A stretch of DNA of 64,000 bases from Bryoerythrophyllum caledonicum (Eukaryota; Streptophyta; Bryopsida; Pottiales; Pottiaceae), in NCBI GenBank assembly GCA_963971425.1, contig OZ020523.1, positions 12,210,867 to 12,274,866 on the forward strand, read 5' to 3'. The translations under genes and the position numbers were made by a program. Below the pieces are notes generated by a model. The model did not search any database. It was not told where the DNA came from and worked only from the letters and a program-made list of their open reading frames with translations. Positions 5,751 through 57,398 of this stretch are shown here, piece after piece (within the stretch, counting starts at the first letter, position 1; every line of letters begins with the position of its first letter).

Positions 5751-6236
5751 TCAATCTTCACTAGAGTTGCTATCGTATCTACGACTTGGCCCTGTACCAC
5801 TCGAGTATGGCCCACCCGAATACATGTCACGCATTGAATTATATTGCATTTCCATGAAGCGGGAATCGTCTTCAAGTTTGCGGATGTATTCTTCTTGGCT
5901 TTGGATGGTGGCTTCACGCATTTGCCTATCAAAATCATCCTCCTCTTGGTTACAAGAACTTCGACAGGACGGTGGTGGAGTATGATAATTTCCATGCATG
6001 CTTCTTCCATATTCATGGAAGGTAGCAGGAACATTATCTGGTATGATTTGTGGCGGCTCCTCTCTCCGGGGATTCTGGTACATCTCATACGTATTCCTCG
6101 TATGTGCATCTGTATAAGTAGTAGGGGTGTAGCTTCTCATATTGTATTGACCGCTCTCGTAGTAATGGCCTTTGCTTGGATTACCAAATGTAAAGGGGGA
6201 TGCATTTGGATTGTTGCCATAAGAACAGTCTCTATA
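5751..6236 (-). pseudogene. 3' part of a gene split by the 12.8 kb element
   Basis: On the minus strand an open frame runs from the element boundary to a TGA stop (rc of 5,751-5,753), about 160 codons. The product is hydrophilic, rich in Y, S, N, G and P, with an acidic, probably helical segment (from EEDDFDRQMREAT to RKLEDD) and a low-complexity C-terminus ending NSSED. It has no initiator of its own. The open frame continues from the fragment at 19,009-19,551 once the element and one TATA copy are left out, joining as ...HNY + RDCSYG.... The composition of the two halves matches. Family unknown; it could be a host gene or an accessory gene of an older transposon. Confidence 0.55.
6233..6236. 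repeat. 4-bp target site duplication, left copy (TATA)
   Basis: TATA sits immediately outside the left terminal inverted repeat. The matching copy is at 19,009-19,012. Only a 4-base duplication keeps the interrupted reading frame intact; a 2-base TA duplication would shift it. Confidence 0.65.
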
Positions 6237-6268
6237 AACACGCAATTAAGCAATTATGCACTTGGCCA
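6237..6268 (+). repeat. left terminal inverted repeat of the 12.8 kb element
   Basis: It begins AACACGCAATTAAGC and matches the reverse complement of 18,977-19,008 at 30 of 32 positions by eye. It is followed by AAAAGTGCACTTGGG, which is also found near the right end of the 2.2 kb relative. Confidence 0.75.
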
Positions 6269-6809
6269 TTTAAAAGTGCACTTGGGTACAACGGCGGCCA
6301 TTGCGAACAAAAGTGGCAAAATTGAAAAAAAAAAAAAAAAATCAAAGAAAAAAAATGTTTTCCTAAGGAAAAAAAATTGAGCTTCTGCAACAATATTATG
6401 TACAATTATGGTTGTTCATATTGGAAGCGATTTTTTGGCATTTTCAACTAATTTGTGGTGTCCCTTCGTTAATACTAGATAATTGTGTATTTAATATAGT
6501 TTCACAATATTCCAAAGATAGATTTGAAGAATTGTAATATATAAACAGACGTAATTACAAAAAAACATACTTTTTGCAAGGGTTGGCAGTTGATTAAAAG
6601 ATATTCTACATAGTACATAATGCATACAATGGTGAAAACTAAATATAGATGCTTCAACAATTGGACTTAGCACCGATAGTAAACACAGCTTTACTCTAAA
6701 GGATTAATGACATAACGTCTTACATCACCCTTAGAATATACTACTCTTACACATACAGTATATATCAATTACCATACACAACTAGTATACTCTAAAAAAG
6801 GCACACTAT
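6269..6809. other. element 3' flank, no gene
   Basis: Sequence between the left terminal repeat and the stop of the DUF7869-like gene. It includes a poly-A run near 6,324-6,340 and AT-rich DNA. It probably holds the 3' untranslated region of the minus-strand gene; nothing else is recognised. Confidence 0.4.
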
Positions 6810-9800
6810 CTACTCCATAGAATTTAGGGCTGCTTGCAAACGGTCGTCATCGATAGCTTCGGTTTGCATTGCAATATATTGTAGGATGTGAGCCTTTGCC
6901 GATTGAAGAATGCGAATCCTGCTTTCAACTTGCACTCCAAATACATTGCGCTTTCTGCACCCGTTGGCCCCGGACATGGTTCTTTCCGGTGTGTCTACCC
7001 ATGAAAAAATGCATGCATCTTTCTCTACCCAACTATGGTTCTCCCCAGATGGCTCCCAGAATGAATCCATGCAATTCGCATATCGTTGTGCAGAAGATCC
7101 ATGTCCATCAGCAACCCCCCTTTGGATGATGGGCCAATACCAACAAACTTTAATCTTAAGTCTCCATCGGTTTTTTCCTTCCTCAATCACTTTCCCCACA
7201 TAGAATGGTACACCGCCTTCTATCTCTGCTCGATCAACACTCAAGGCTACAAACTGTCCACAACGGATATCAGATTGTGGATTAAATGGTGGAAATGGGT
7301 CGTGATTACCTTCATACATTGCTCCTTCTTCGGCGCGTTCCTCAACATAGTTGCGCTCTGTTTGTTGTGCCCTACGCACTGCTTGATTAGAGGGTCTTCC
7401 TCTACGAGGACCAAAGTATCCTCGAGCCTCGGCATTTGGAAGCATGGCCACTACCTGCTCTACGACATGTACCTCGCGATTTTCTTCACTTGCACCATCC
7501 ATTACATCCAAAGATGCACTCTCTGTAGGTCCGATGTTGGAAAACTCTGAAGGCCAAAACGGTGAGGTACGATGCTCATTGCTACGGTCTTTGTGTGGAA
7601 ATTGAGCTAAATAGAGTTTCAATCTTTCAGCCTCTACTTTTGCCTCACGATTCTTGTCCTCATGCTGCAACCGTTGAATGCACCTTTGTTTATATGTAAT
7701 GAAGTCATCCAACGCCTTCAACTCCCGTTCGTCCGCTGCAAATACTTCCGCAAACGATGGTCGCTCATCCCTACTTGGCAATGACCTCAAAGTTTTCGTC
7801 CCTGCCTCCGGTCCCCATGGATCCTTGCAATAATGCTTGTGTTGTACTCGAACCTCACGAGTCCCTTCTCGATTGTCCATATAGAATCGCATGTGGTGCG
7901 GAAATGTTATGCCCACCAATGAATCCTGACCTGTCAATAAGTGAGGAGTTATGAACATTTTCCAATCCCATACATTCTCTAGCAGCCGCGCGCTAACAAA
8001 TGCCTCTGTAGGGGATGTTCCTCGTTCTATAAGACTCATCATTTCCTTCAACGAATCCACGTCCGACCTCTTCAACGTATTTGATATACAACTGAAGCGT
8101 TGATCAATATCTTCGTGTGTATGGCCCACTATGAGAAAAGATAGTTCTACCTCCTGAAAAAACCCCAATCCCACCAATGTAGCACATAGAGCAAACATAT
8201 AAATGTTTTTGTTCTCACGTGTGCAGTTGTCCGCCTGAATTCGCAATGTTGGTGGCAAAAAGCCCCTCCTCCGCAACACATCTCCTATCACGTACAACAA
8301 TGTACTCACGACTTGGTTGCTATCGTGTTTGTGGTGAGCCCCAAACCACACGTCGCAATATAAACCAATCCCATGTACAAGAGCACCACATAGATGGGTC
8401 TTCACAAATCGGTGTTCAATGTTCTTCACAGTCTGACGCATCCTCGGTACCATGGTCGTATTTTGGTCCATGCCATCCACTATGATGCACATGTACAACT
8501 CAGGGCTAATATAACACGACCTCTTGAATATCCAATAATGCCTACGTTCTTCCATCTGGTTGCGCAGATGCAACATAAACAACTCCTTTATTTGTATCCT
8601 TGCATCCGCATTGGTGGTTCCCTCCATGGCACATTTATACTCCCAACAATGATAACACTTTGAGAATCTTGAGAATGGAGGTACCTGAACGTGGGGATAC
8701 TTGATGCGCCACATCCTCCGGAACGAACTCATAGAAATGGTTTCTCCATTACAAATTCTCTTGATCTCCTCGTTCACGTAATTGAATACATCAAATTTGG
8801 CTGTATTCATAGGAAGGAGAATGAGAGGCACCACTTCGTTGTCACTCTTACGGCGAATACAACGATGAGGTTGAGGACAACCAGCTTCATCGACAAATGA
8901 TTTAAAGCAAGCATCTGCTGCAGACATTCTAGTGCTCTCTCTGATCGGATCTGAAAGGGTATTGCCGTGAATCGATGTCACTCTTCCATATATTAGACAA
9001 TCCTTCTTCAATTGCTTAAAGCGCCTCTGTGAATATCCAACCCCAAGAGCGTAGCAAGCATTGCAAACTTCTTTCCCATCTAACTTTGTTACAAACTTGT
9101 CTCGACGAGTTCCTTCCGTCCTTGTATAAAAAGAAACCAACATCTGTCTCATCCACGTACTTCGTACTGAAAACTCAGTAGCCCATGCATTATATCGCAT
9201 GTCCAATAGATACCTTGCTGGAACGTCCCTCAAACAATTGCGTTTGCATCCTCCTTGTGCCATTGCAATTTGCACGCTTCTAAGCGATACCTTAAATGGT
9301 GCAGCTTCTGTCAATGATGTCTCCCTTGAATCTCTCCTTCTCCTATTTTGCATAGAATAGGGACGACGTGCTGGTCTCAGATAAGAAAATCCATCTACAT
9401 GGGGCAAATCTTGGATATTTGAGGGAGTAGGCTGGGAAAACGGCGAATTTTCATCTATGGCGTTAGAAGCTTGACTACTGCGTCGAGACCTCTGGGTGGA
9501 TCCAGGTGTGTTGATGAACTCAGGGAAATTAAATTCTGGAGCCATCACTTGTGCAGGCGCTATCTGTGATCCAATGTCACCATGGACACCTGTAATATCA
9601 GGTTCTACAGCCACTACACGTAGCAAAGATCGATGCCATCGAATGATCAAGCCCATACACATGCCAAGGCGTTCTCCTACAATCTCTCCGGTCCAATGCA
9701 ATGCATCATCTACCCTAGTGATACGCACCGCCACCTCGTATGGGAACAACTTCGACCCATTCAATTCCATGCCACTTTTGAATGCATGCTCCCTAGTTGC

Positions 9801-10001
9801 TAAGCCCACCACATCTCCTCTCTCAGAAAGCAATTCTACGGCCGTATCTAATTCAGATGTCATGATCCCAACAGATCTCTGTTGAATTTGCCTTGCACGT
9901 GCTGCTCGTACTAAACGAGCCCCCACTGAGCTATTGGAATGTATATTATCCATTTGGATGTGTGGCCGTATCGAAGGAGTCTGAATCGTGCGGCTCTCCA
10001 T
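6810..10001 (-). CDS. DUF7869-like (RNase-H-fold, putative transposase) protein
   Basis: This uninterrupted frame of 1,063 codons runs from MESRTIQ (10,001). The frame stays open 13 codons further, but the bases just before the ATG (TTTTTAATAG) look like a 3' splice site, so I prefer this start. In the frame counted from 10,040, three conserved acidic blocks occur: VDGMDQ near residue 520, QADNCTRENKN near 603, and GHTHEDIDQ near 640. This is the pattern I recall for DUF7869 proteins, which resemble RNase-H-fold DDE nucleases. Upstream lies CNACYALGVGYSQRR, also typical of such proteins. The C-terminus (VALSVDRAE, VCWYWP, W-rich) looks like a small beta-barrel reader domain. It is the best transposase candidate for the surrounding element. 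Its activity is inferred, not shown. It reads away from the shared central region towards the left terminus. Confidence 0.8.
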   Translation of the reverse strand: MESRTIQTPSIRPHIQMDNIHSNSSVGARLVRAARARQIQQRSVGIMTSELDTAVELLSERGDVVGLATREHAFKSGMELNGSKLFPYEVAVRITRVDDALHWTGEIVGERLGMCMGLIIRWHRSLLRVVAVEPDITGVHGDIGSQIAPAQVMAPEFNFPEFINTPGSTQRSRRSSQASNAIDENSPFSQPTPSNIQDLPHVDGFSYLRPARRPYSMQNRRRRDSRETSLTEAAPFKVSLRSVQIAMAQGGCKRNCLRDVPARYLLDMRYNAWATEFSVRSTWMRQMLVSFYTRTEGTRRDKFVTKLDGKEVCNACYALGVGYSQRRFKQLKKDCLIYGRVTSIHGNTLSDPIRESTRMSAADACFKSFVDEAGCPQPHRCIRRKSDNEVVPLILLPMNTAKFDVFNYVNEEIKRICNGETISMSSFRRMWRIKYPHVQVPPFSRFSKCYHCWEYKCAMEGTTNADARIQIKELFMLHLRNQMEERRHYWIFKRSCYISPELYMCIIVDGMDQNTTMVPRMRQTVKNIEHRFVKTHLCGALVHGIGLYCDVWFGAHHKHDSNQVVSTLLYVIGDVLRRRGFLPPTLRIQADNCTRENKNIYMFALCATLVGLGFFQEVELSFLIVGHTHEDIDQRFSCISNTLKRSDVDSLKEMMSLIERGTSPTEAFVSARLLENVWDWKMFITPHLLTGQDSLVGITFPHHMRFYMDNREGTREVRVQHKHYCKDPWGPEAGTKTLRSLPSRDERPSFAEVFAADERELKALDDFITYKQRCIQRLQHEDKNREAKVEAERLKLYLAQFPHKDRSNEHRTSPFWPSEFSNIGPTESASLDVMDGASEENREVHVVEQVVAMLPNAEARGYFGPRRGRPSNQAVRRAQQTERNYVEERAEEGAMYEGNHDPFPPFNPQSDIRCGQFVALSVDRAEIEGGVPFYVGKVIEEGKNRWRLKIKVCWYWPIIQRGVADGHGSSAQRYANCMDSFWEPSGENHSWVEKDACIFSWVDTPERTMSGANGCRKRNVFGVQVESRIRILQSAKAHILQYIAMQTEAIDDDRLQAALNSME

Positions 10002-10219
10002 TATCACTATTAAAAACATAGGAACATTATGGCTGCACATTAGTCAAAATACATGTACTAATTCTAAACCTTCAAAGCACCATTCATCTAATAAAAGAAA
10101 TGTTTCTAAACACATATTTACTGTTCAAAATATGATGATGAAATTGGACTTTTTGATAAAATTGCTTTGAAATGAAAAAAATTAGAATTTGTAGAGCATG
10201 AATTCCTTGCACGGAGTCT

Positions 10220-11166
10220 TTAACCCTGAAGGTACAATGACAGTCTTACACAAAAAAGACTTCAAAATTGTTGGATTCTAATGCAATAAACAAAAATGGA
10301 GACGAAAAATTTAATTTCTAGTTTTGACCGTAGGATCTCACTTAAGGTTTATTAAGTAATATATAAACAAAATTTCATAAACTTTGACCGCACAGATTGA
10401 AAGATAATAGTGTTTGAGTCAAGCATATGGTTCATTTTCTTTCCTGCGTGGAGTGGATTAGTAGATTTTGACTTCACTTGGTGTCAAATTTTTGCACTAC
10501 AGAAGGTCTAAATCCATAACCATCTTGTTAAGCATGATGTTAGTTCCTTGTACACCAATTTTTAGAGGTAGAGAACGGGTGTAGCATATTCAAAACAATT
10601 GAGCAAGGAGTGGAAGTTCGGAATTTGTTAATTCACTCTGTAGATTTTTGTGAACTTAATATGTTTTAGATTGGTACTCCAAAAGGTCAATAAGAAGGTT
10701 TACACCACATATTGTTCTGGAAAAAATAAAAACTAAAAAATAAAAAGATATCTAGGTTTTATTTGAAAAACAAGACGTTTTGTGGATACCTTGCCCAACA
10801 CTGGCTGACAATGTGTGAAAATGTTTGTGTTGGTATGTTATTTTTCACTAAAGACAAGAACTTATTTTGACAACATCAAAGGAAATAATATTACTTGCAA
10901 GTACTGAAAATCTCACATTTAACAGAGTGTCTAAGCAAAAGTTTTTGGACGTGTCGGACTTGCCCGCTCTCCCCATTTGAAATTCAAAACCCTTATACTT
11001 TTTTATCAAATGTCCAATTAAGGTAAAAATTGTTTTCCCACTGAAGTCTTGGTAATGCCTTTCTATAGTAAAATTTTCAAAGAAGGAATGTTGAAAACTG
11101 ACACCATAGGAACGTGCCTAAATTTTGAAAAATCTTATTTATGACACATGATCCTTTAGGGGCTAA
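10220..11166 (-). mobile_element. TTAA-family element, complete (947 bp), inside the 12.8 kb element
   Basis: It starts TTAACCCTGAAGGTACAATG at 10,220 and ends with GATCCTTTAGGGGCTAA at 11,166, where the terminal TTAA has become CTAA. All interior family blocks are in order. It lies 5' of the DUF7869-like gene, possibly in an intron, and so entered the larger element after that element was assembled. No ORF. Confidence 0.75.
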
Positions 11167-12274
11167 ATATGCTACACCTCTATTGTATCCCTAAACATTG
11201 GTGTAAAATGGAACTTATATCAGTCTTGACATGATGATAATGAATCTAGATCAGGTGTGATGCAATCTTTTGAATCCAAGTGAACTGAAAACGGAGGGAA
11301 TCCACTGAACCTAGGGAAGAAAATGAACCATGTTGTCTACGAGCTATTACTGCAACCATTGGAACTTGTTACAATCCCTAATAAAAGAAAGGTTTGTACA
11401 TCCACATAAAAGTTATTCTACAAACAACATAGTATAGAAGATCAATCAATAATCAATCTTAAACTTGTATAAAAATAAATGTTTACCTCAAGATACGTAG
11501 CAGGTATTAGTGGTACACGCATTGATGCTTGATGGCGTTAAACATTGAATCACCATTCTGTCGTTATTGGACATGTTTTTCAACCCTTCCCACTTTACCT
11601 GCGACACATGCATAAAATTTATATGGTAAACTATGTGATAAAAACTCCTATGTATCTTCGTATTACATATAGCCCAAAATTTTAATATATTATGTAAAAA
11701 TTTTAAACATAAGAAAATACAAAGCAAAAGGTCCAAATTTCGAAAGTCAAATTTTGACTAGTACACTTCAGGCACAAGTTTCGAGCATGGATATAAGGTT
11801 TTTGTGAAAATCTGGAGGTCATTTCTCTTCCCAGTACCTAAGGTAAGCTCTCTTGCAATCGAAAGCTCAAGGCCATGTGCGTTTTTACTTCAGTCACTGA
11901 CTTCTGTCAACTTTGTGTGGACTGTGTAGATTGAAGGAAATTTGCACATCGAGGAGACTTCTGCAAATTTGGTAAGCTTCTAACCTTGTTTCAATTCTGA
12001 ATCCGAGGGAACTCCAGGGTTAGGTTCATGATGATAATAGATCGGTCAGATTTACAATAGTGTAAGGTCAGCAGTACCAATATTTGAGCATACAAACGAG
12101 GACACCTTCAATATGTTCAAAAATTACAAATACAACAGAAGTTATTTGTTTACAACTAGTCAGTCAACTAGTAACATCAAATAGTGACACCAAAACCCAC
12201 TGAAAACTTCAGTAATGTGAGTAGCCCGTAGTGTGGCACTAAATCTATGGAATGGCACATCAGCACACTAGTTC
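11167..12274. other. non-coding spacer with an exon-like segment at 11,488-11,600 (minus)
   Basis: No clear gene. On the minus strand a stretch at about 11,488-11,600 is preceded by an acceptor-like TGTGTCGCAG and followed by a donor-like GAG/GTAAAC. It could be a 5' leader exon of the DUF7869-like gene, with the TTAA element then in the following intron. Donor-like AAG/GTAAGC and TTG/GTAAGC sites near 11,840 and 11,970 on the plus strand could belong to the leader of the opposite gene. All of this is speculative. Confidence 0.25.
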
Positions 12275-12405
12275 AAACCCTAGCTGCCGCAGCCAAACCC
12301 TAACCGCCGCAACCAATCCCTAGCCGCCAGAACCAAACCCTAGCCGCCACAACTAAACCCTAGCCGCCGCAACTAGAAACCCAAACCCTAAAACCAAACC
12401 CTAGT
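12275..12405. repeat. telo-box array (AAACCCTA with GCCGCC)
   Basis: About six degenerate units of roughly 20-22 bases each combine AAACCCTA with a GCCGC motif. Exact AAACCCTA copies recur through 12,275-12,405, with more at about 12,841, 13,163 and 13,180. AAACCCTA is the plant telo-box, a known promoter element of growth-related genes, and also a unit of the plant telomere repeat. The array lies between the two divergent genes of the element, so a shared promoter region is a reasonable inference. A true telomere remnant is unlikely because the GCCGC spacers are part of the unit. Confidence 0.55.
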
Positions 12406-12441
12406 CCCCTCGTTCCCCATGGCGTTCGCGTGACGCCTCAT

Positions 12442-12463
12442 GGGGTGTGCGCGCGCACACCCC
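12442..12463. repeat. 22-bp perfect palindrome, copy 1
   Basis: A perfect palindrome with core GTGTGCGCGCGCACAC, flanked by GGG and CCC. An identical copy lies at 13,085-13,106 on the other side of the assembly gap. The alternating purine-pyrimidine core could form Z-DNA or a hairpin. Confidence 0.85.
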
Positions 12464-12557
12464 CAACTCCTGGTGCTCCTCCATTCATCCAAAAACTTCT
12501 TGGCTCAAACCTCATGCAAGGACCTTCGTGATTCCTCTCGACGAAAGTGAGAAAGAG

Positions 12558-12757
12558 NNNNNNNNNNNNNNNNNNNNNNNNNNNNNNNNNNNNNNNNNNN
12601 NNNNNNNNNNNNNNNNNNNNNNNNNNNNNNNNNNNNNNNNNNNNNNNNNNNNNNNNNNNNNNNNNNNNNNNNNNNNNNNNNNNNNNNNNNNNNNNNNNNN
12701 NNNNNNNNNNNNNNNNNNNNNNNNNNNNNNNNNNNNNNNNNNNNNNNNNNNNNNNNN
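12558..12757. other. assembly gap (200 N)
   Basis: Exactly 200 unknown bases, which usually marks a gap of arbitrary or estimated length. A homopolymer T run (12,780-12,797) and tandem C/T-rich DNA follow, which would explain the assembly failure. Open frames that appear to cross this gap are artefacts. Confidence 0.95.
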
Positions 12758-13084
12758 CTGGCGCAGGCGCTGCGGCTACTTTTTTTTTTTTTTTTTCCCC
12801 ACCATTCCTCACAACCCCCAATCTTTTTTCTTCTCTCTCCCAAACCCTAGCCGCAACCAAATTTCTCTCCCTCACACCTCCCCTCCATTCCTCTCCCTCA
12901 CAACTCTTCTCTCCACACACCTCCCCTCCATTCCTCTCCCTCACAAATCTTCTCTCCTCACAAGCCCTTCTCTCACGAACCCACAAGCCTCTCACAAGCC
13001 CTCTCTCACAAACACACAACACTCTCACAAGCATCTCCCTCCTCCAAACCCTCTCACGCTCATAGCCTCCACAGAACTATGGCA
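12758..13084. repeat. C/T-rich tandem-like tract
   Basis: A strongly strand-asymmetric C/T-rich sequence with repeated CCTCTCCCTCACAA, TCTCTCC and CACAAGCC words. It lies inside the element's central region and is bordered by the second palindrome. It resembles the C/T-rich tract inside the 2.2 kb relative (57,420-58,080). No coding signal. Confidence 0.55.
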
Positions 13085-13106
13085 GGGGTGTGCGCGCGCA
13101 CACCCC
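13085..13106. repeat. 22-bp perfect palindrome, copy 2
   Basis: Identical to the palindrome at 12,442-12,463. It is followed by several GATACCCT words between about 13,130 and 13,275. Confidence 0.85.
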
Positions 13107-13333
13107 TCCTTGCACTACCAAGGCTCTAAGGATTGATATCCTCAGTTGATACCCTCTAAACAAAACCCTAAATTTGAAACCCTAGTTGATACCCTGATCC
13201 AATATATGTTGATAACCGGATGTTTGTACCCATGAATTCATACCCTGGATGTGATACCCTCTCTATTGATACCCAAAGTACCATAGTCCATAAATGGTGT
13301 AGTGAATATCTCAACCAAAACTCCTTAAAAATG

Positions 13334-14450
13334 CTTGTTTTAGTGCAATTATCTTGGATGAAAAAATGAAGGTTTTTTTTATAGTTTTAACCGCAGGATC
13401 TCAATAAACACCTATTAAGTAATATACTCCCAAAATTTCATAAAGTTTGACCGCACGGATTGAAAGATTATAATGTTTGAAATTGAGAATAGGCTCATTT
13501 TCATCCCTGCGTTTTATGGATCAGCAGACTTTGACTTCAATTGGTGTCCAATTTTTGCATTTTAAAGGGTCTCAATTAATTACCATAATGTTAATCATGA
13601 TGTTAGTTTGCTATGTACCAATTTTTAGAGGTAGACAAGGAGTGGAGCATATTCAAAAAAATTGTGCAATGAGTGGAGGTTCAAAAATTCTCAATTCACG
13701 TTATATTTTTTGGGGAACTCGATATTGTTTTAAATGAGAATCCAAATGGTCAATAAGAAGTTTTACATCACATAATGTTGTAGGAAAAATCAAAAGTGAA
13801 TAATACGAAGATCTCAAAATTTTATGTGGGAAGGTAGTGGTTTTTTTGGTACGTTGGCCGAAAATGTGTGACAATGTGTGAAAATAATTGACTTGGATTG
13901 ATATGCTATTTTACCAAAGAACTAACAACATGCTTCACGCGATGCTATTGGATTTAGATCTTGTATAGTGCAAAAGTTTTTAGAGGTAGAAAAGGAGTGT
14001 AGCATATTCTAAAAAATTGTACAATGAGTGGAGGTTCAAAAATTCTTAATTCATGTTATTTATTTATTTTTTAACTTCATTTTGTTTGAAATTAGAATCT
14101 AAATGGTCAATTAGAAGGTTTACATGACATAATGCCGTAGGAAAAATCAAAAGTGAATCATACGAAGATCTCGAAGATTTATGTAGAAAGGTAGAAGTGT
14201 TTTTGGTACTTTGGCCGAAAATGTGTGACAATGTGTGAAAATAATTGATTTGGATTAATATGCTATTTCACCAAAGAACTAACAACATGCTTAACACAAT
14301 GGTATTGGATTTAGATCTTCCGTAGTGCAAAAATTTTTAAACGTAGACAAGGGGTGTTGCATGTTCAAAAAAATTGTGCAATCAGTGGTGGTTCAAAAAT
14401 CCTTATTCCATACTAATAGTGACTATCGTTTTGTAATGATATACAGGTTT
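13334..14450 (-). mobile_element. TTAA-family element with internal 355-bp tandem duplication
   Basis: A diverged copy in minus orientation starts near TTAA 13,334 and holds the ACCGCAGGATCTC block (13,389) and the TTGACTTCAATTGG block (13,529). A segment beginning TTTTTAGAGGTAGA at about 13,622 recurs at about 13,977 and, diverged, at about 14,332, which is a tandem array with a period near 355 bases. The outer end is lost before the next gene. The last repeat unit supplies the spurious N-terminal extension of the 14,466 gene. Confidence 0.55.
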
Positions 14451-14465
14451 TTTGAGTGTTGCGTT

Positions 14466-17400
14466 ATGGCACCACCAAATATTGATAGAATCTGGGAGAG
14501 CCACGGCTGGTGGATCGCGGAAGTGGATGAGTCGAACGCCTTCTTGTGGGTGACGGATTATCCCTTTGAGTTGGGAAAGCGTACATCGGCGTTGGGGAAG
14601 AGTTTTGGCAAAATCCAAGCAATCACTCTTCGACGTGATGATATGGTATACATTACTTGCGCAGTGGGTCCAGGTCAATCGGAGGTGAAGACTTCTCTTT
14701 CGAAGAAGTTGCTTCTTGCACCTGTCCCTTTGAATCTTCTTCAAAATCCAGGTCAAGTGAAATTCCTCAAATCATTGCAGACGTTTTGGTTGAACATCTC
14801 TCTTGCAGTACGTACTGCTAGACACAACAACGTCTTAGCTTGTTTAGCGTTATCACCGGAGATGGTGCTGAAGGCTAAGAAGATTATGGAGGAACATATT
14901 CGATATGAGGCATTTCGGGAGAGGGACCCATCACGTGCGACAACTCAAGCCCCACCAGCGGAACCGGAAGAAACAGAAGTTTATCGAATTCTTGCTGAGC
15001 CGTTGCAACTGGATTGGCGACCACTGGAGGGGGGGAGAGGAAGTGGAGACCAACATCCCGCCACAACTTCTGAGGTACAGACATTACCGAATCCTCCATT
15101 AACGAGTAGACGTCCTACGAAGAGGCCACGACGTGTTGACAGTGATGTAGCTTCTGGTTCAAGAGAAGGCCCATCAAGTTTGGATCCAAGTGGGAGGAGG
15201 TTGATTGGGAGAAGTGCAAGATCAGGTGCCAGGATTCCTAGGTCGGGGCTCAGGACGTCTGATGGTCATCGTAGGGCCCCTACATCTGCACCGGGAGATT
15301 TAGCTGATTTGTCAGCCATGGCGCCGGAGGAAGAAGATTTTCACAACCTTCCAGACAGTATACCAGAGGATTTTGAAGACAATGCGGAGATACCACAGGA
15401 TCTTCCAACTCCAATGAATTTAAAAGCACCAGTGCCTACAACAGAGGAGATTGCGAAAGGATCAGTGTGGGGGAATTTTGTGTTTAAGGCACACATAGAC
15501 CGCATTGTCTCTGTGGAGAATCCAGAAACCAACCATCGGGTTTTATCACAGAAGAGGGTCATAGAAGTATTCAACCGCTTACGGGACCCAGAATCCGCGA
15601 CTCGGGTGAGTAGATTGGTACTTCGACCGATCAGATACATCGTGCATACTACCACCGATGATGGTGTCGTTGAGAAGGAAGAGCTGCCATTTCCGTTGGT
15701 AGGAACCGCACGAGAGTTTGAGCGCATGTTCATTGCACACGGGAGTGCATCTGCACAGGGTGCTATGGGATCCCAGTATTCTTGGCTTCAAGATCATATC
15801 ATTTGGGAACCGGTGGATGGGCAACACATAGTAGCAGCTTGTAAGTTTGCACAGCAGCAGTGGAGAGATGGTACTATGTCTTTAAACGAGTATCTGGACA
15901 CGTTTGAGCGGCGGGAGGCCTCTTTTGTGGTGTATGATGATCGTCGTTTTTACATTGAGAAGTCTGCGCGGATCAACGTGGCGGAGTTCCAGAGACATTC
16001 ATATTCTACCATGGAGGAGGATTTGAGGAAGCTCCGTCAGATTTGGGATCTATACGGGAGGCCTGATAGCACACTACGTGCGGACGATGCACGCAGGGCT
16101 GTTGCTTTGGTGAGTGCGGCAAGTGCAGTGCATAAGTTGCCCAAGGGGGATGGAGTTGTCACGGTGAAGAGGTTGGCCAAAAACATGGAGGATCTGACCA
16201 ATCATGCATGGAATCCGAGCAATGACTGCTTCGAAGCTATCATTCAAGTATGCAAGGACTACGAAGACGGCATTCTCTTTTACAGCAAGGAGGAAGAGGA
16301 CAAGTGGAAGGACATGGCGAGGAAGAAAGAGCTGGATCCAAATGTGGACGTACGACCAACAAGAAAGGAGATGACGCAGAATTGGTTGAGGCCTCTAGGT
16401 AGGGTTTTGAATCCATATTATCTTCGGTTGGCAAAGTCTGCTGCAGCGAAGCCGGTGACGGAGGATGGAGTAAGACCTTCTCAAGCATATTACTTCGACG
16501 GTGTAAAAGACAAGAATCCACATCCTCGTACGATTGCCGGTGTGGTTGACCGATATCAGAGACGAGAAGCTGTGATGAATTCGATCCGTTGGTTGATGGT
16601 GGAGAACAAGGAAAGTACACCTGATTCCATGGAAGAGTTCTTTCGTATCCGTGTAGCGAAGTATTTTCCGAGGAGTAGTGCACAACTTGATACCTTTGGG
16701 AAGCTTTTGAATGCTGCCACGAAAAAAGCTTGGAGTGCTCCTGTGCGAGGGAAGGTGTCTAAACTGGAAGACATAGGCTACCTCATCCCCCCTTCCATCA
16801 GGTTTCATTATGGTGACATTGCAGCAGGGGGGCGTGGATACATTGGACTGTCCGTGGATGTGGGAGAATTGACTACTGCTAATTGGGAATGGCAGATGGA
16901 AGTCAAGAGGCCAGGGCAGAGCGACACAGAGAATCTTCTTCCGGTTCGGTGTAGAAGAGGATTATTCCGCACCGATTACATAGAGTTGGGGAAACCATGT
17001 TTGTGGGTGATTGATTGTCGACGTGGCGGTGGGAGGCATGGAGATGGTCATTGGGGAGATGCCCAATTATCCGCAGCTTTTGCACAGCTGACATTATGGA
17101 TGGCAAATATTGAACGATGGAACGTCATCTTCTTGTTACCTGCGGCTGTGTATGCCAATGAGGAGTTTTTCACGAAGGTGAAGCTTCCAGAGGGATGTAC
17201 TATGCGACGTGGATGCTCGGCCTTTGATCCCAACTCGGTTAATCCCTATGCTCTTGATTTTACAGAGAATGGGCGTCTGGAGCAAGTAGTACAACCGATT
17301 GGCGATGTTGTGATTTGTATGCAGCACCCTGTGGGTACATCTCCTGGCCCGAACTATGTTTCTGGAGACGTTCCACTTCCACTTGTATTCTTGGATCACT

Positions 17401-18410
17401 GGAGTGAGGCACGCCAACCCTCTGAAGTTGATTCACTTGAGAGATCTCCATCAGAGCTCGCAAGACTAGTGGGCTCATACTTGCCCCGTGGTTGGGGTTT
17501 AGTGGCGTGTAACATATCTACGGCCATTCCCACGATCCTTGAAGGAGATTTCCAGGGATCTGAGGTTTTCATCATTGACGATTGTACAGACAGAGTTTCA
17601 TTCCTGTACAATGAGTTGTCCGACAATTTCCAAGGACAACTGTTGGTCAGGACTGGTGGAACAAGTACTGGTTGCAACACCATACCTGAGACCGAAGATG
17701 TGGTTGGTGGAGTGAGGAATGAAGAGGACAATGAGGATGGAGGTGGTTTACATGAGAGATTGCCACGTTCAGGTACCACTGAAGATTTTTCATCTGGCAG
17801 TGATTCAGACGCCGATGAGGATGGAGAGAGAATTCCATCAACGCAGCGGAGGGTGGGAGATACTTCAGGGGCGACGTCTGCAACACCTATAGAGAATATG
17901 CAAGATACAGGTGTAGTAGATGTTAGTTTGGCGGCAGGGGCAGGACGGGGGCGTACATTTGATGGTCCTAGGTTGGAGATGGAGGAAGAAGGATTGGATT
18001 CATGTGAATTTTTTTCGGTGCAGAGGAGGATTCGACGGCCTTCGATGCCTCCTCAATCAGAGCCTGTATCGGAGACACAAGAGACGTTCGGAGGTACTCA
18101 GAGTGATACCGGACCAGGTTTGCCTCCCGTTCCAAGATCTAGCGTATCCGAGGACATCATTGCATTTCAGGGGGCCTTCTCATCAGAGCGAGAGATGTCC
18201 TTCAATGCAAAGGATGGCTTTTTCTATAATGATGATAGGGTAAGGCATACGCGGGAGGGTGTTCCTGGCAATTACCGATTTGTTGAGTGTGCGTCCATTG
18301 GCATCGAAGATGTGGGAGATCGTCCAGTGGAGGATCATGAACTATCCGCTATGGTAGGTAGCGCCATTGGACACGTGGAGGGAGTCGTTCCGCCAGCAGA
18401 TGAGCTGTGA
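14466..18410 (+). CDS. unrecognised 1,314-aa nuclear-type protein of the 12.8 kb element
   Basis: The uninterrupted frame starts at ATG 14,466 (MAPPNIDRIW). An in-frame ATG 47 codons upstream lies in repeat DNA and is rejected. Visible parts: a globular N-terminus rich in W (1-150); a basic stretch RRPTKRPRR near residue 215 that could be a nuclear localisation signal; acidic linkers; a central domain with VDGQHIVAACKFA (D451-H454), recalling the DGQH loop of ParB/DndB-like folds; a large region to about 1,050; and an acidic S/E/G-rich tail. Between about 967 and 1,045, LPLVFLDHWSE and then LARLVGSYLPRGWGLVACN loosely resemble the C-terminal half of beta-class DNA methyltransferases, but no DPPY and no intact G-loop are seen. 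Function unknown. It reads towards the right terminus, divergent from the DUF7869-like gene, which suggests a partner in transposition or target handling. Confidence 0.8.
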   Translation: MAPPNIDRIWESHGWWIAEVDESNAFLWVTDYPFELGKRTSALGKSFGKIQAITLRRDDMVYITCAVGPGQSEVKTSLSKKLLLAPVPLNLLQNPGQVKFLKSLQTFWLNISLAVRTARHNNVLACLALSPEMVLKAKKIMEEHIRYEAFRERDPSRATTQAPPAEPEETEVYRILAEPLQLDWRPLEGGRGSGDQHPATTSEVQTLPNPPLTSRRPTKRPRRVDSDVASGSREGPSSLDPSGRRLIGRSARSGARIPRSGLRTSDGHRRAPTSAPGDLADLSAMAPEEEDFHNLPDSIPEDFEDNAEIPQDLPTPMNLKAPVPTTEEIAKGSVWGNFVFKAHIDRIVSVENPETNHRVLSQKRVIEVFNRLRDPESATRVSRLVLRPIRYIVHTTTDDGVVEKEELPFPLVGTAREFERMFIAHGSASAQGAMGSQYSWLQDHIIWEPVDGQHIVAACKFAQQQWRDGTMSLNEYLDTFERREASFVVYDDRRFYIEKSARINVAEFQRHSYSTMEEDLRKLRQIWDLYGRPDSTLRADDARRAVALVSAASAVHKLPKGDGVVTVKRLAKNMEDLTNHAWNPSNDCFEAIIQVCKDYEDGILFYSKEEEDKWKDMARKKELDPNVDVRPTRKEMTQNWLRPLGRVLNPYYLRLAKSAAAKPVTEDGVRPSQAYYFDGVKDKNPHPRTIAGVVDRYQRREAVMNSIRWLMVENKESTPDSMEEFFRIRVAKYFPRSSAQLDTFGKLLNAATKKAWSAPVRGKVSKLEDIGYLIPPSIRFHYGDIAAGGRGYIGLSVDVGELTTANWEWQMEVKRPGQSDTENLLPVRCRRGLFRTDYIELGKPCLWVIDCRRGGGRHGDGHWGDAQLSAAFAQLTLWMANIERWNVIFLLPAAVYANEEFFTKVKLPEGCTMRRGCSAFDPNSVNPYALDFTENGRLEQVVQPIGDVVICMQHPVGTSPGPNYVSGDVPLPLVFLDHWSEARQPSEVDSLERSPSELARLVGSYLPRGWGLVACNISTAIPTILEGDFQGSEVFIIDDCTDRVSFLYNELSDNFQGQLLVRTGGTSTGCNTIPETEDVVGGVRNEEDNEDGGGLHERLPRSGTTEDFSSGSDSDADEDGERIPSTQRRVGDTSGATSATPIENMQDTGVVDVSLAAGAGRGRTFDGPRLEMEEEGLDSCEFFSVQRRIRRPSMPPQSEPVSETQETFGGTQSDTGPGLPPVPRSSVSEDIIAFQGAFSSEREMSFNAKDGFFYNDDRVRHTREGVPGNYRFVECASIGIEDVGDRPVEDHELSAMVGSAIGHVEGVVPPADEL

Positions 18411-18976
18411 GCCGTGGAGCTATATACTATAGTAGAGCATGCACGCAGTTTAGGTGGCAAGTACGTTAGTATTATGCAGTTTGAGATGTGTCTATCGTTC
18501 GGTTGGTGGTATATATTTATATATTGGGTGGTCCATATGATATGTTTGATTTTAGAATTCCTCAGCAATAGTGTGGAATTGCTTGATTATGTATGTTTTT
18601 GCATTATAAAATACAGTGAGGTACTTTACACTGTCTTAGGAATTTGCATATATATTTTTGTATCTCTTACACATTGTGTTTGTAGTGCAGTACTCTAAAA
18701 TCCTATAATAACTCATAACACATTTATAATCTCTTTGGGCACATGATCATAATTTTGTAGCATGATTTGCAAACTAGAGTAGAAATCATATATTTTCAAA
18801 AAAAAGTTAGCGAATGGAAAAAATATATTACTGATATGAACATAAAGATGCCAATGTATGATACAACAAACACCAAAAAAAATTGACAAAAAACATACTA
18901 AAATTTTGCCAAATTTTGATTTAAAAAAAAGTTATGGGCAAATAACTTGCGGCTTTCTACCACCAACCAGTGCACT
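18411..18976. other. element 3' flank, no gene
   Basis: AT-rich DNA between the stop of the 1,314-aa gene and the right terminal repeat. Nothing beyond a probable 3' untranslated region is recognised. Confidence 0.4.
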
Positions 18977-19008
18977 TGGCTAAGTGCATAATTGCTTAAT
19001 TGTGTGTT
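18977..19008 (-). repeat. right terminal inverted repeat of the 12.8 kb element
   Basis: The reverse complement begins AACACACAATTAAGC and continues AATTATGCACTTAGCCA, matching the left end except at two bases. It is preceded by AGTGCACTTGG (18,970-18,980 region), the same subterminal word as on the left. Confidence 0.75.
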
Positions 19009-19551
19009 TATAGTTATGGGCGTGAAACTCTTCTGCATGTGCTTGTTGTGGTTGTATTCCATCCAAGTCCCCACTAGAGTGTCGGTTTGACCAACGAGGC
19101 CAACAATCACTTGGTTGATTCCAAGTTGTGTAACTAAAATGTTTGCTACAATCTAAGAGGTCAACGTTACAACCGGCCACGGTGCGCCAATCTACATCTT
19201 TGTGCAATACAATTCAGTCCAAACCATAGACGTGTTTGAATATAACATTATCTCCGGCCTTGCATTGCGTACACCAACCGCAATTGTGACTTCATGATAG
19301 CAATGGGTGAAATGAAAACTTAGGCAATTGCTGGCAAGACCTTCCTGCCACGGCCCTAATATTTTTGTTTGGGCTCTAGGCCACAATTTCATCAGGTGCG
19401 TCATTTTTACATATTTTTTGCAGGTGATGCACGTCCAAGGTGTTTGTTCTTCATCCTACCATCCTTCTTCAGCTACACAATCAGGATCGTCCGTTTCTTC
19501 CCAATTAATCTCGCGGGCTTTTCCCTTTGGAGCATTTGGACGTCTAGGCAT
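19009..19551 (-). pseudogene. 5' part of the gene split by the 12.8 kb element
   Basis: On the minus strand a start at 19,551 gives MPRRPNAPKGKAREINWEET..., then a stop or intron after about 31 codons. A downstream piece encodes PWTCITCKKYV, a CxxC-like motif. The last piece, read from about 19,193 to the element boundary, is rich in W, S, H and Q and ends EEFHAHNY. This is the frame that continues into 5,751-6,236. The intermediate exon structure is uncertain (an acceptor-like GATGTAG at about 19,193). The short CxxC might be a zinc-finger relic such as BED, but I cannot confirm this. A CpG-rich island lies upstream (19,720-20,040). Confidence 0.4.
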
Positions 19552-29760: not shown

Positions 29761-30984
29761 GCGGACAGGAAGTAAGAAGTTTTGACTACGATTCAACCTT
29801 TATAATATCACCCTTGTTATTAGCACACATTGATATTATCACCCACACCTCTTAAAACCAATTTCATGAGTTTGAACTTAGTTGTTGATTTTTAAAGGCC
29901 CAAGAGTTTCCTCATATGACTCTTGAAGGTTTGGATAGGTTCCTATGGTGTCCATTTATAGCATTATTCTTTGAAATTTTTACAATAGATGGGAATTACT
30001 AAAAGCTTTGTGTGAGTACAATTTTTTCTTGAATCCGACATTCAATGAAAAAGTTATAGGGTTTTGAATTTCAAATGGGGATAGCAGGTACATGGAGCAA
30101 CTCCAAAAACTTTTGCTAGAACACTATCAAATGTAAGATTTTGAGTTGTAGATAGTAATATCATTTCCTTTTCATATTGTCAAAAAATATATTTGTCCTT
30201 GGTGAAAGATAACACATAAACCCAAGTCAAACATTTTCACACAGTGTCACACATTGTCGAGCAAGGTACCAAAAATTACTTCTTATTTTCCAAATAAAAC
30301 ATAGAGATCTTCATACTATTCACATTTTGATTTTCAACTCCAAGATGTGGTGTAAACCTTCTTATTGACCGTTTGGATTCTCATAATATTAAATATCCAA
30401 TTCACAAAAAAATATAACATGTATTGGCAATATTTGAACCTCCACTACTTGCACAATTGTTTTTGAATATGCTACACCCCTTCTCTACCTCCGAAAATTG
30501 GTGAATGAGGAATTAACATCATGATTAACAAGATGGTAATGGATTTAGACCTTGTATAGTGCAAAAATTGGACACCAAGTGAAGTCAAAGTCTGCTGATC
30601 CTCTAAACGGAGGGAAGAAATTGTACCCTTTTCTCTACTTCAAACACTATAATCTTTCAATTCATGCAACCAAAATTTATGAAATCTTATGAGGACCTTA
30701 CTTGATAAATCTTTATTGAGACCCTACGGTTTGATGTACAAATAAATGTTTTTGTTTCCCTCCTTACTCATTGTACAATAGGGTGACATTCAAATTGGCC
30801 GTTTAGTAGTTCCAGGGATAGTGTCCTACACTGCTGCCAACTTTGACACCCTCCCCAAAGCTGAGAAATTGTTATTTTACCATGAAAATTTGGGGACAAC
30901 ATCATCTTTATGTTGAAAACATGCATACCAAATTTCAAGTCCAGGAGACTTATACAAAAAAACTTATGCAAGATCTACCAACAT

Positions 30985-35869: not shown

Positions 35870-37560
35870 TTAACCCCTGAATTTTCCTTGACAATTACAC
35901 ACCAAAACTGTTGATTCTAGTGCACTGAGTTAGGAAGGAAACAAAAACCGTTTAATTACCATGACAGCTTTACACCAAAAACACTTCAAAATTGTTGGAT
36001 TCTAGTACAATGAGCAAAGAAGGAAACAAAAAAATCGAATTCTAGTTTTGACCGTAGGATCTCAATTAAGACTCATTAAGTAATATACTCTCAAAATTTC
36101 ATAAACTTTGACCGCACAGATTGAAAGATTATAGTGTTTGAAGTGAAGCACTGATTCATTTTCTTCCCTGCGTTTAGTGGATGAGCAGATTTTGACTTCA
36201 CTTGGTGTCAAATTTTTGAACTACACAAGGTCTAAATCCATTACCATCTTCTTAAGCAAGATGTTAGTTCCTTAAAAACCAATTTTTAGAGGTAGAGGAC
36301 GAGTGTAGCATATTCAAAACAACTAAGCAAGGATGGAGGTTCAAAATTAGCCAATCCACACTTTAATTTTTTGTGAACTTAACATGTTTTCGATTGATAA
36401 TCCGAATGGTTAATAAGAAGGTTTACACCACATATTGTTGTGGAAAAACTAAAAAGTGAAAGGTATAAAGATAACTAGGTTTTATGTGGAAAAGAAGAAG
36501 TTTTTTTGGTACCTTACCCGACAATGAGTGACAATGTGTGAAAATGTTTGACTTGGGTTGGTATGCTATTATTTACTAAAGACAAGAATTCTTTTGGGAC
36601 AATATGAAGGGAAATAATATTACTTGCGAGTATTGAAAATCCCACATTCAATAGAGTGTCCTAGGAAAAGTTTTTGGAAGTGCCCGAGGTGCCTGCTCTC
36701 CCCATTTGAAATTCAAATCCCTATTACCTTTTCATCAAATGTCCAATTTAGGAAAAAAATTGTTTTCCCACTAAGGTCTAGGTAATGCCTTTCTGTAGTA
36801 ACAATTTCAAAGAGGAATGTTGGAAATTGACACCATAAGAAGCTGACCGAACTTTCAAAAAGCTCATTTTTGACACTTGGTCCTTTAGGGGTTAACCGTA
36901 GGATCTCATTTAGCACATAATACATTACGTACTCACAAAATTTTGTCAACTTTGACGGCACGGATTGAGAGGTTATAGTCTTTGAAGAGGGGAAAATGGT
37001 TCATTTTCATCCCCAAGTTGAGTAGATGAGCAGCAAGCTTTGACTTCAATTGGTGTCAAAGTTTTGCACTACACAAGGTCTAAATTTGATATCATCATGT
37101 TTATCATGATATCAACTTCTTGTACAACAATTTTTAGAGGTAGAAAAGAGGTGTAGCATGTTCCAAAAAATTGTGCAAGGAGTGGAGGTTCTGAAAAATG
37201 CCAATTCACCTTTTAACTTTTTTTGAACAAAATGTGTTTTCGAATCATAATCCGACTATCAATACCAAGGTTTACACCACGTCTTGTAGTAGAAAAAATA
37301 AAAAGTGAAAGATATGAAGATCTCAAAGTTTTATGTGGAAAGGAAGAAGTTTTTTTGATTCATTGCCCGACAATCTATGGCAATGTGTGAAAATCTTTGA
37401 CTTAGGATAAAATGCATTTTTCCACTAAAGACAAGAGAATGCTTTTTTAAAATAAAATAAAAATAAAAATTACTTGCTAGTATTTGAAACCTCAAATTTA
37501 CTAGAGTCTCCTAACAAAAGTTTTTGAAGTTGCCCGACGTGCCCACACTTGACAATTTTT
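35870..37560 (-). mobile_element. TTAA-family element interrupted by another family copy
   Basis: It begins TTAACCCCTGAATTTTCC at 35,870, runs to AACAAAAACCGT, and resumes after 36,895 with CCGTAGGATCTC, exactly the next block in family order (about 18 bases are missing at the junction). It then continues to about 37,560, where the family sequence fades without a clear second end. The break point is a TTAA occupied by the copy at 35,952-36,895. Confidence 0.7.
35952..36895 (-). mobile_element. TTAA-family element, complete (944 bp), nested in a relative
   Basis: It is bounded by TTAA at 35,952-35,955 and 36,892-36,895. It starts TTAATTACCATGACAGC and ends GGTCCTTTAGGGGTTAA, with all interior blocks in order. 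It sits inside an older copy of the same family. Confidence 0.8.
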
Positions 37561-37833: not shown

Positions 37834-38781
37834 ATAACCTCTAAGACCCAAGAGTCCCCTCGAGGGACTCTAAGAATTTAGGCAACTTCCTATAGTGTCA
37901 ATTTATAACGTTACTTTTAAAAAATTTCATTATAAATGGACATCACTAAAACTTTTGTGTGCATACAATTTTTTTGTTAAATTTGACATTCAATACAAAA
38001 GTTGTAGAGTTTTGAATTTTTTCTGGAAAGAGTAGGCATGTTGGACAACTCCAAAAACTTTTGTTGTAATACTCATTCATATATGAGATTTTCAATATTG
38101 GCAAGTAAACTCATTTTCTTTCATATTGTCAAAAAATATTGTCTTTAGTGAAAAATAGCATATTAACCCAAGTCAAACATTATCAAACATTGTCACAAAT
38201 TGTCGGGCAAGGTACTAAAAAACATTCTTCTTTTCCACATTATAATTTAGAGATCTTTATATTTTATGAATTTTTTCCTTCTTACTACAAGATGTGTTGT
38301 ACACCTTCCTATCAACCATTTGGATTTTCATTCTAAAACATATTTAGTTCACAAAAAAAAAATGCAAACTGGTAATTTTTGAACCTCCACTCCTTGCACA
38401 ATTGTTTTGAATATGTTACACCCTTCTTCTACCTCTAAAAAGTGGTGTACAAGGAACTAAATTCATGCTTAAGAAGATGGTAAAGAATCTAGACCTTGTG
38501 TAGTGCAAAAATTTCAAAACCAAGTGAAGTCAAAGTTTGCTGATGCACTCAACGCAGGGAAGAAAATGAACCATTTTCTCTACTTCAAAAACTATAATAT
38601 TTCAATCCGTGCGGTCAAAGTTTACGAAATTTTGTGAGGACGTTACTTAGTGAGCTTTAATTCAGATCCTAAGATTAGATGTACAAATAAAAATATTTGT
38701 TTCCCTCTTTACTCATTGCACTAGAACAAGCAATTTTGAAGTGTTTTTGGTGTGAAAATGCCTTGAGCCTTTAGGGGTTAA
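37834..38781 (+). mobile_element. TTAA-family element, complete (948 bp)
   Basis: The left end is ATAACCTCTAAGACCC (tip mutated). It is followed by the hairpin AGAGTCCCCTCGAGGGACTCT. The right end is CCTTTAGGGGTTAA with TTAA at 38,778-38,781. The interior is in family order. No ORF. Confidence 0.78.
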
Positions 38782-57124: not shown

Positions 57125-57245
57125 TTGAACATCACCAAGGCTAGTAGAAGCCGGTTGGAGGTGGTTGAGCAACCTTGAAGTTAAGCAAGATGGTGAAGGT
57201 ATAGGACTTGGATGGGTGACCAAGGGAACTAGGTTGAAATTTCCT
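57125..57245 (+). repeat. 5S rRNA-like sequence (5S-derived SINE or pseudogene)
   Basis: AGTTAAGC at 57,179-57,186 and GGATGGGTGACC at 57,210-57,221 match the A box and C box of the 5S rRNA internal promoter. They have nearly the usual spacing (31 here, about 35 in plant 5S) and are followed by an AGGGAACTAGGTTG segment recalling TGGGAAGTCCTCGTGTTG. The 5' third is too diverged for a functional 5S gene. Repeated GAACTC words at 57,280-57,305 may be the tail of a 5S-derived SINE. No target duplication was identified. Confidence 0.6.
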
Positions 57246-57377
57246 AGCTCTTGTTGGCTTTGCCTCGCGAAGCCCACGGGGAACTCGGAGAACTCAGAGA
57301 ACTCATGTAGCCTTTTGCCCACGAGCATTAATTTTATATTAAGTTTTTTTTATTAATTTATGCGGATATGTGCGTGC

Positions 57378-57398
57378 GGGATGTGCGCACGCACACCC
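57378..57398. repeat. imperfect palindrome ATGTGCGCACGCACA
   Basis: The same GTGTGCGC-type palindrome as in the large element, imperfect here. Perfect 12-base forms GTGTGCGCACAC lie at 57,941-57,952 and 58,061-58,072. Confidence 0.6.

Follow-up and report, generated by a model that had tools for sequence, protein, structure and literature searches.

A recently active mobile element of Bryoerythrophyllum caledonicum with a DUF7869 gene and a divergent second gene, very probably an autonomous DNA transposon

Introduction

Several described groups of DNA transposons offer points of comparison for the element reported here. Sola elements make 4-bp target-site duplications and encode enzymes with DDD residues, Ginger1 and Ginger2 carry a retroviral-type integrase domain, Academ elements join a transposase to XPG or helicase domains, and CACTA (with TnpA and TnpD) and MuDR are plant transposons that work with two proteins. 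According to the available excerpts of the sources cited, Sola1 elements of bivalves have a mean length of 5,445 bp (PMC10294476), Ginger1 and Ginger2 leave duplications of 4 bp, or 4-5 bp (PMC10045372), and Chapaev elements of the CMC group leave duplications of 3-4 bp and have termini that are invariably 5'-CAC (PMC4079192). The excerpt of PMC9587614 assigns a TTAA-specific duplication to Kolobok and piggyBac, and a C/DxxH motif between the second D and the last E to the hAT/P/MuDR/Kolobok/Dada group, while that of PMC4455052 gives an e-value of 0.005 as the Repbase criterion for convergence.

Here, we analyze a segment of about 12.8 kb within a stretch of 64,000 nucleotides (the window), and conclude with high confidence that it is an autonomous, recently active two-gene DNA transposon in which ORF1 would be a DDD transposase and ORF2 its conserved partner. 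The observations behind this reading are the ends, the 4-bp duplications, the empty sites, the near-identical copies, purifying selection, and linkage of the two genes in several diverged lineages.

Results

Anatomy of the element

A first-pass annotation of the window had described a 12.8-kb element with inverted ends, TATA on either side, two long genes pointing outward, and a 2.2-kb relative with the same tips. All of these were found as described, the inverted repeat measuring 32 bp with 2 mismatches; the boundaries are exact to the base, whereas the length is approximate, as a gap of 200 N lies inside the element. The features are as follows.

6233-6236, unstranded: left target-site duplication TATA, with empty-site support
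6237-19008: terminal inverted repeat (TIR) element, about 12.8 kb
6237-6268, plus strand: left terminal inverted repeat AACACGCAATTAAGCAATTATGCACTTGGCCA, 32 bp
6810-10040, minus strand: ORF1, DUF7869 protein and candidate DDD transposase, matching PF25273
10229-11331, unstranded: genome-wide interspersed repeat copies between the ORFs
12558-12757, unstranded: gap of 200 N within the element
13378-14360, unstranded: more repeat copies between the ORFs
14466-18410, plus strand: ORF2, conserved partner protein, 1314 aa from its ATG
18977-19008, minus strand: right terminal inverted repeat, 32 bp
19009-19012, unstranded: right target-site duplication TATA, with empty-site support
56633-58807, minus strand: non-autonomous relative of 2.2 kb that shares the tips

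The 2.2-kb relative lies in reversed orientation, judged by its subterminal sequence, and is flanked by the 4-mers GATA and GGTA, which differ at one base. With no more than 3 mismatches allowed, the window contains the tip pattern 4 times, compared with 0 times in 100 shuffles.

Tips, target duplications and empty sites

As the first-pass annotation had suggested, the tip was searched against the whole assembly. Its first 27 bp, with at most 2 mismatches, gave 941+970 matches in the plant's own 437-Mb genome, and the reversed control gave 0. Among the first 100 exact tips listed, neighboring tips less than 30 kb apart face each other in 27 of 31 cases. The predicted 4-bp target duplication is exact in 26 of 30 paired elements and not exact in the other 4. 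Because these exact duplications comprise 23 different 4-mers, the TATA of the window copy is target and not element sequence; target preference is weak and can be written C-TWTA-G. One copy (C8:5252617, L077) was left unpaired, its right end being absent among the matches listed, the C188 ends were excluded for their wrong order, and the copy at C10:4.12 has a damaged right tip. TATA is also non-specific, in that other copies are flanked by 4-bp duplications of many sequences.

For the window element, the joined 220-bp flanks match element-free paralogues at all 40 scored places (277 candidates), with 86-96% identity and every match spanning the junction. Across the set of joined flanks, from which C12_5.78 was omitted, 10 of 31 have a cross-junction paralogue at 73-98.7% identity within the sequence examined. 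These empty sites also bear on an earlier claim that a gene outside the element reads in frame across it: the joined flanks are indeed open on the minus strand, but the frame belongs to an interspersed repeat, present at those same 40 places. Among the copies listed, the closest are 99-100% identical. With fixed-end terminal inverted repeats, a 4-bp duplication, and empty sites that hold a single copy of the duplication, the segment shares these properties with TIR DNA transposons, and it is a genuine, recently active mobile element.

ORF1, a DUF7869 protein

ORF1 encodes 1076 aa from its first ATG, an in-frame ATG at residue 14 giving the 1,063 aa of the first-pass annotation. It matches Pfam family PF25273 (DUF7869) with an E-value of 7.6e-51 and 172.9 bits, against a curated cut-off of 26. 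The alignment of lineages contains invariant aspartate motifs, with D522, D604 and D646 as candidate triad, and the protein has three cysteine pairs (C265/C269, C326/C329 and C462/C465). D522, D525, D604, E609 and D646 are all retained in a relative at 26-30% identity (L092). Compared with a lineage whose ORF1 is 79% identical, dN/dS is 0.16 (Nei-Gojobori), indicating purifying selection; the ratios of nine pairs involving L081 or L080 were excluded, as dS was saturated (seven undefined, two above 3). Among the matches listed, 17 of 43 scored copies are stop-free.

Searches against solved structures returned no significant match for ORF1. The best hit of its profile was ATP synthase subunit d (E 0.15-0.27), which, like phrog_13117 (E 0.11), is below threshold and was taken as chance. 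Searched as a single sequence, ORF1 found no relatives among viral contigs or the genome contigs of prokaryotes; an alignment search likewise found none in viral contigs and a single one, L092, in genome contigs, where it is filed under an uncultured Trichormus MAG and which we infer to be eukaryotic contamination. Nothing on DUF7869 by name was found in the literature searched, and nothing recognizable as the window element appeared in the titles and abstract openings of the papers found. Taken together, the conserved residues suggest that ORF1 is probably a DDD-type transposase, the enzyme that would cut the DNA. The first-pass annotation had proposed that a DUF7869 nuclease and a large partner form a mobile system: mobility is borne out by the TIR element itself, and the nuclease role is suggested by the invariant aspartates and purifying selection.

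ORF2, the second protein

The reading frame of ORF2 stays open upstream of its ATG, and 20 of 35 scored copies are stop-free among the matches listed. Against the lineage with 79% identical ORF1, its dN/dS is 0.32 (Nei-Gojobori), falling to 0.23 in aa 330-620; a pair at 99% identity gives 0.43, a value that stems from very few changes. No significant match was found for ORF2 in Pfam, PDB, PHROGs or NCBIfam, nor any relative in viral contigs.

Several assignments were considered and set aside. We take the motif EPVDGQHxVxAC to resemble ParB/DGQHR proteins. A YbdM-type family was built and its profile compared with that of ORF2 aa 330-620, after removal of L165 and L173 from the alignment because of stops; the motif aligned, yet the hhalign probability was 0.2%, equal to that of two unrelated controls, with profiles that are shallow. 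A motif in residues 850-1125 prompted a methyltransferase-like reading, which was dropped as PDB and Pfam gave it no support. A chemotaxis transducer for ORF2 (E 0.24), phrog_27123 (0.12) and NF049968 (0.097) for L096, and PF03347 (0.056) for a piece of L089 were all sub-threshold and taken as chance.

A large element with two big proteins might also be thought virus-like, either Polinton-like or an endogenous viral segment. We regard this as extremely improbable, since neither ORF has a polymerase, capsid or integrase domain match, the tips are short, and the duplication is 4 bp, compared with 6 bp for Polintons in the excerpt of PMC10045372.

Linkage of the two genes in diverged lineages

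Further copies with both genes, which the first-pass annotation had proposed to look for, are present in the genome. Among the matches listed, 32 of 86 scored ORF2 matches have a DUF7869 match within 16 kb, and 29 of these 32 pairs are arranged back-to-back; random placement gave 3.2 nearby pairs (maximum 8 in 200 runs), 0.8 of them back-to-back. About 16 of the 29 have nearly equal spacing (7.7-7.8 kb) and probably represent one lineage, so that they are not independent.

A deep lineage with 35-36% ORF1 identity has AACAC tips (AACACCGGTT...); in both copies checked the duplications are exact (TATT/TATT and CTAA/CTAA), and homology between copies stops at AACAC. Of the several diverged lineages in which the two genes are linked, two have AACAC ends at both sides. 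The flanks of lineage V (C706), AATT/AATA, differ at one base. Such diverged tips accompany correspondingly diverged copies of ORF1. This argues against a reading in which the element is non-autonomous, both ORFs are cargo, and another transposase sharing the tips mobilizes it: many shorter copies do carry the same tips, but the invariant aspartate motifs of ORF1, and the fact that no further long conserved frame besides ORF1 and ORF2 was seen in the window element, make it very improbable.

In three lineages, no ORF2 was detectable nearby: in the four copies examined of the AACATGGAATTCGC lineage (ORF1 45%), within 10 kb in the C2:27.56 lineage (ORF1 37%), and within 15 kb downstream in the C14:4.75 lineage (ORF1 40%), all by tblastn. 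ORF2-like matches lie 46 and 27 kb further on from the C2:27.56 and C14:4.75 copies, in matching orientation. L095 has two long frames, neither of them related to ORF2. ORF2 may therefore not be universal among DUF7869 lineages. The only ORF2 match in these tblastn searches is one of 19 residues in L094, within a nested window-type copy. The first-pass annotation had named separation of the two genes from the tips as evidence against its proposal; weighed against that test, these three lineages have a DUF7869 gene with no ORF2 detectable close by. An ORF2 that an ancestral element captured and that is dispensable, with ORF1 alone moving the element, would be consistent with those three lineages and with the faster divergence of ORF2 (53-57% identity, compared with 79% for ORF1). 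We nevertheless consider such a passenger unlikely, given the head-to-head linkage in several diverged lineages and a dN/dS of 0.26-0.32 over pairs that are not nearly identical, a sign of purifying selection.

Discussion

Proposed mechanism and significance

In our preferred reading, that of an autonomous two-gene transposon, an RNase-H-like DDD site of ORF1 (proposed D522, D604 and D646) would cleave the DNA at the AACAC... tips and insert these into the target at breaks staggered by 4 bp. Gap repair would then yield the 4-bp duplications, among which C-TWTA-G is weakly preferred. ORF2, whose gene points the other way, would most likely be a partner that binds DNA or forms a complex, acting on the ends or the target of the element or on its silencing. 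We infer three parts of this model: catalysis by ORF1, a cut-and-paste and not a copy-paste mode of movement, and what ORF2 does. The system is minimal and well defined, in that it has two genes, its tips are exact and its target rule is known, and annotators could use it to recognize a high-copy plant repeat whose proteins now look like orphan genes.

Comparison with known systems

We tentatively propose, as a plausible reading, that the cut-and-paste transposons of eukaryotes include a new superfamily defined by DUF7869, with 5'-AACAC tips, 4-bp duplications, and a divergently transcribed second protein whose fold is new and which autonomous copies require; it would have several lineages in this plant and occur outside it as well. 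Should the transposase prove unrelated to named superfamilies, a new superfamily and a two-protein mechanism would follow. It is also possible, if somewhat doubtful, that the element is a diverged member of a named superfamily, most likely Sola1/Sola2, or else Academ, and lacks only the annotation. This view fits the 4-bp duplications and the large size and conserved aspartates of the candidate transposase, and DUF7869 is simply a Pfam family that has no name. With Sola, the element shares the duplication length and, if ORF1 acts as proposed, a DDD-type enzyme, and differs in its two genes and its length of about 12.8 kb. Nothing found links it to Sola or Academ, which were compared by description, and neither ORF has an XPG or helicase Pfam match. 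The bivalve Sola1 average of 5,445 bp (excerpt of PMC10294476) is well below the length of this two-gene element, although length alone decides nothing.

Ginger1 and Ginger2, among the candidates of the first-pass annotation, have duplications of similar length, but ORF1 has no integrase match in Pfam at E up to 1, and this candidacy is left unsupported. Chapaev is again similar in duplication length; here, however, the tips are 5'-AACAC and the duplicated bases lie beyond the AA, and there is no CMC Pfam match. Among the 26 elements with exact duplications, the left tips read AACAC in 24 and AACAT in 2, and the right tips AACAC in all 26, so none begins with the 5'-CAC of Chapaev. TTAA, the Kolobok and piggyBac target, occurs in 0 of the 26 duplications, and C/DxxH between D604 and D646, an interval that depends on the proposed triad, is absent from all 6 lineages as well as from L092. 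Like CACTA and MuDR, the element pairs a presumed transposase with a second protein, but ORF1 has no Pfam match to their transposases and the tips differ. PF25273 (DUF7869), a domain of unknown function, is here found inside a defined mobile element, and an unannotated family thereby gains a mobile role.

Ends and target duplications

Inverted tips of 32 bp with two mismatches, beginning 5'-AACAC and flanked by TATA at both ends, delimit the window element, within which ORF1 is transcribed leftward and ORF2 rightward; both the ends and the outward-pointing gene pair are thus as the first-pass annotation had described them. The element's size is approximate, because it contains a run of undetermined bases:

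6237-19008, TIR element
6810-10040, minus strand, ORF1, DUF7869 (PF25273) protein
12558-12757, 200-N gap
14466-18410, plus strand, ORF2, partner protein
56633-58807, 2.2-kb relative

Four matches to the tip pattern lie in the window, against none in 100 shuffles; two of the four are the ends of the 2.2-kb relative, which does share the element's tips, as had been noticed, and whose flanks (GATA/GGTA) differ by one base. A weak endonuclease-like match upstream of the relative (51999-52604, E 0.006, below the cut-off) suggests that it sits near a LINE-like element. The window also holds a gene with a WRC domain (PF08879 match), a domain that points to a land plant. The N gap is flanked by two copies of the perfect 22-base palindrome GGGGTGTGCGCGCGCACACCCC (12442-12463 and 13085-13106, 643 bases apart), perhaps a small nested element.

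We searched the window's own assembly (437 Mb, 894 contigs) with the left and right 264 bp of the element, which gave at least 40 matches each at 95-100% identity, and with the tip's first 27 bases, which, allowing up to 2 mismatches, gave 941+970 matches and none for a reversed-pattern control. Among the first 100 exact tips listed (contigs C1 and C2), 27 of 31 neighbours less than 30 kb apart face one another, at separations of 2.2-25 kb (10 at 12.3-13.6 kb). Exact tips crowd the first 12.8 Mb of C1 (65 Mb); just two of those listed fall at 12.8-53.6 Mb, although the repeat that flanks the window element is common in that interval.

By proximity pairing of end, ORF1, ORF2 and DUF7869 matches, we assembled 30 elements with both ends taken. 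In 26 of them the 4-mer next to the left tip recurs exactly next to the right tip, which bears out the claimed 4-bp target duplication by the kind of tip search and flank alignment that had been called for; the exceptions have TATA/AATA, a 5-bp repeat, an extra base and a damaged tip. Among the 26 exact duplications there are 23 distinct 4-mers, weakly biased towards the palindromic pattern C-TWTA-G, so the TATA flanking the window copy is target sequence.

Empty sites

We joined element flanks, retaining one duplication. For the window copy (110+110 bases, single TATA), the best 40 of 277 candidate matches are 86-96% identical and all span the junction, 37 of them covering at least bases 2-217, so the pre-insertion site is visible in paralogues. 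Since all 40 are element-free, the frame read across the gap after removal of the element, although indeed open, is repeat DNA and not a single-copy host gene. A high-copy interspersed repeat lies both outside the element and within its inter-ORF region:

2454-2941, 10229-10727, 13378-13787, 30332-30776, 35957-36446, 38284-38760, 40298-40790, 43207-43526 and 62062-62370, high-copy interspersed repeat

A copy on contig C9 is inserted in this repeat. A search within the collected element loci found cross-junction paralogues for 10 of 31 joined flanks (73-98.7% identity), and none for the 2.2-kb relative. The best (98.7%, single ATAA) belongs to an internally deleted copy of 4.4 kb that lies nested within L094, one of the stretches compared with the window element. 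The C9 copy follows, with a 94.4% paralogue that has a 3-base gap adjoining the junction and an 87% paralogue with a single TTCA.

Linkage of the two genes

Among the matches listed, 17 of 43 ORF1 copies and 20 of 35 ORF2 copies lack internal stops. Grouping the matches gave at least 16 loci in which ORF1 and ORF2 are both present and ordered as expected; loci with a single gene were left uninterpreted. Both genes appear to be maintained by function: dN/dS for ORF1 is 0.16 in comparison with a 79% identical lineage and 0.21 with a 95% identical copy, and for ORF2 it is 0.26 with a 95% identical copy and 0.32 with a diverged copy (by region, from a minimum of 0.23 at aa 330-620 to a maximum of 0.58 in the tail).

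For DUF7869, the best 150 of 3612 candidate matches in the window's genome were scored; 14 control genomes gave no matches. We aligned six ORF1 lineages, the other five being 35-79% identical to the window's. The 79% lineage has the window element's layout (~12.3 kb tip to tip), a damaged right tip and stops within ORF2. In the 35-36% lineage (copies on C1, C9 and C6), ORF2 is distantly related to the window element's (identity of 31% across 222 aa and 21% across 322 aa). The tips of this lineage read AACACCGGTT..., with homology between copies stopping at AACAC; both ends are seen in two copies, whose duplications are TATT/TATT in one and CTAA/CTAA in the other. With a piece of this lineage's ORF2 as query, at least 86 matches were found, down to 22% identity. 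For 32 of the 86 listed, a listed DUF7869 match lies no more than 16 kb away, and 29 of these pairs are back-to-back, versus 3.2 and 0.8 expected under random placement, with contig extents approximated from match coordinates. Thus, further copies holding both genes, which the first-pass annotation had proposed looking for, do exist. About 16 of the 29 pairs are spaced 7.7-7.8 kb and are probably one lineage, so that independent lineages number fewer than 29.

Three lineages gave no ORF2 nearby. The AACATGGAATTCGC... tip lineage (66+73 tips, ORF1 45% identical) showed none in the 10 kb beside three copies (stretches L091, L102 and L103), which instead have a tandem repeat downstream of ORF1 (unit ~1.98-2.0 kb), and none was found in a fourth, a C3 element with its far side in view. 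The same 132-aa frame occurs four times in the repeat of L091 and L102 and once in L103; around the copy at C9:16.37, consecutive exact tips listed lie up to ~39 kb apart. No ORF2 was found within 15 kb of DUF7869 in the C14 lineage or within 10 kb in the C2 lineage, ORF2-like matches lying 27 kb and 46 kb further on, respectively. In lineage V (C706), the 27 tip bases are identical at both ends, yet the flanks read AATT/AATA. A AACACCGGTT tip search (up to 3 mismatches) gave 32 matches, among which AACACCTGTT/AACACTTGTT-type tips occur only on C706, C238, C245, C746, C30, C91, C142, C157, C359, C376 and C772; these small contigs may derive from another haplotype, from a chromosome left unassembled or from contamination.

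ORF1 as candidate transposase

The ORF1 blocks DGMDQ, IQADNCxRENKN and GHTHxDIDQRFS and three cysteine pairs are invariant in all six lineages. Residues D522, D525, D604, E609 and D646, and not D644, are kept in a 26-30% identical protein:

L092:522-3266, 914-aa DUF7869 protein; contig catalogued under an uncultured Trichormus MAG

This contig is probably eukaryotic contamination, perhaps from a host plant. We propose D522-D604-D646 as the putative active site. Judging from this conservation, ORF1 would cut the tips and insert the element with a 4-bp stagger. ORF1 has no significant match to any solved structure, and ORF2 none in Pfam, PDB, PHROGs or NCBIfam; a ParB-like reading of ORF2 failed its own profile-comparison test. 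Other plant transposons carry second proteins, and by analogy ORF2 is most likely a DNA-binding or complex partner.

Classification

The ends, target duplications and empty sites mark the window element as a TIR DNA transposon, and its claimed mobility is upheld; we infer its transposase type from sequence. DUF7869 is not mentioned by name in the open-access literature searched, subscription papers and Repbase lying outside that search. The element departs from the definitions tested for Ginger, earlier named as a candidate superfamily, and for Kolobok/piggyBac and Chapaev; Sola and Academ lay outside the sequence comparison. The hAT/P/MuDR group carries a C/DxxH motif, which the window-type ORF1 would lack if the D522-D604-D646 triad is right.
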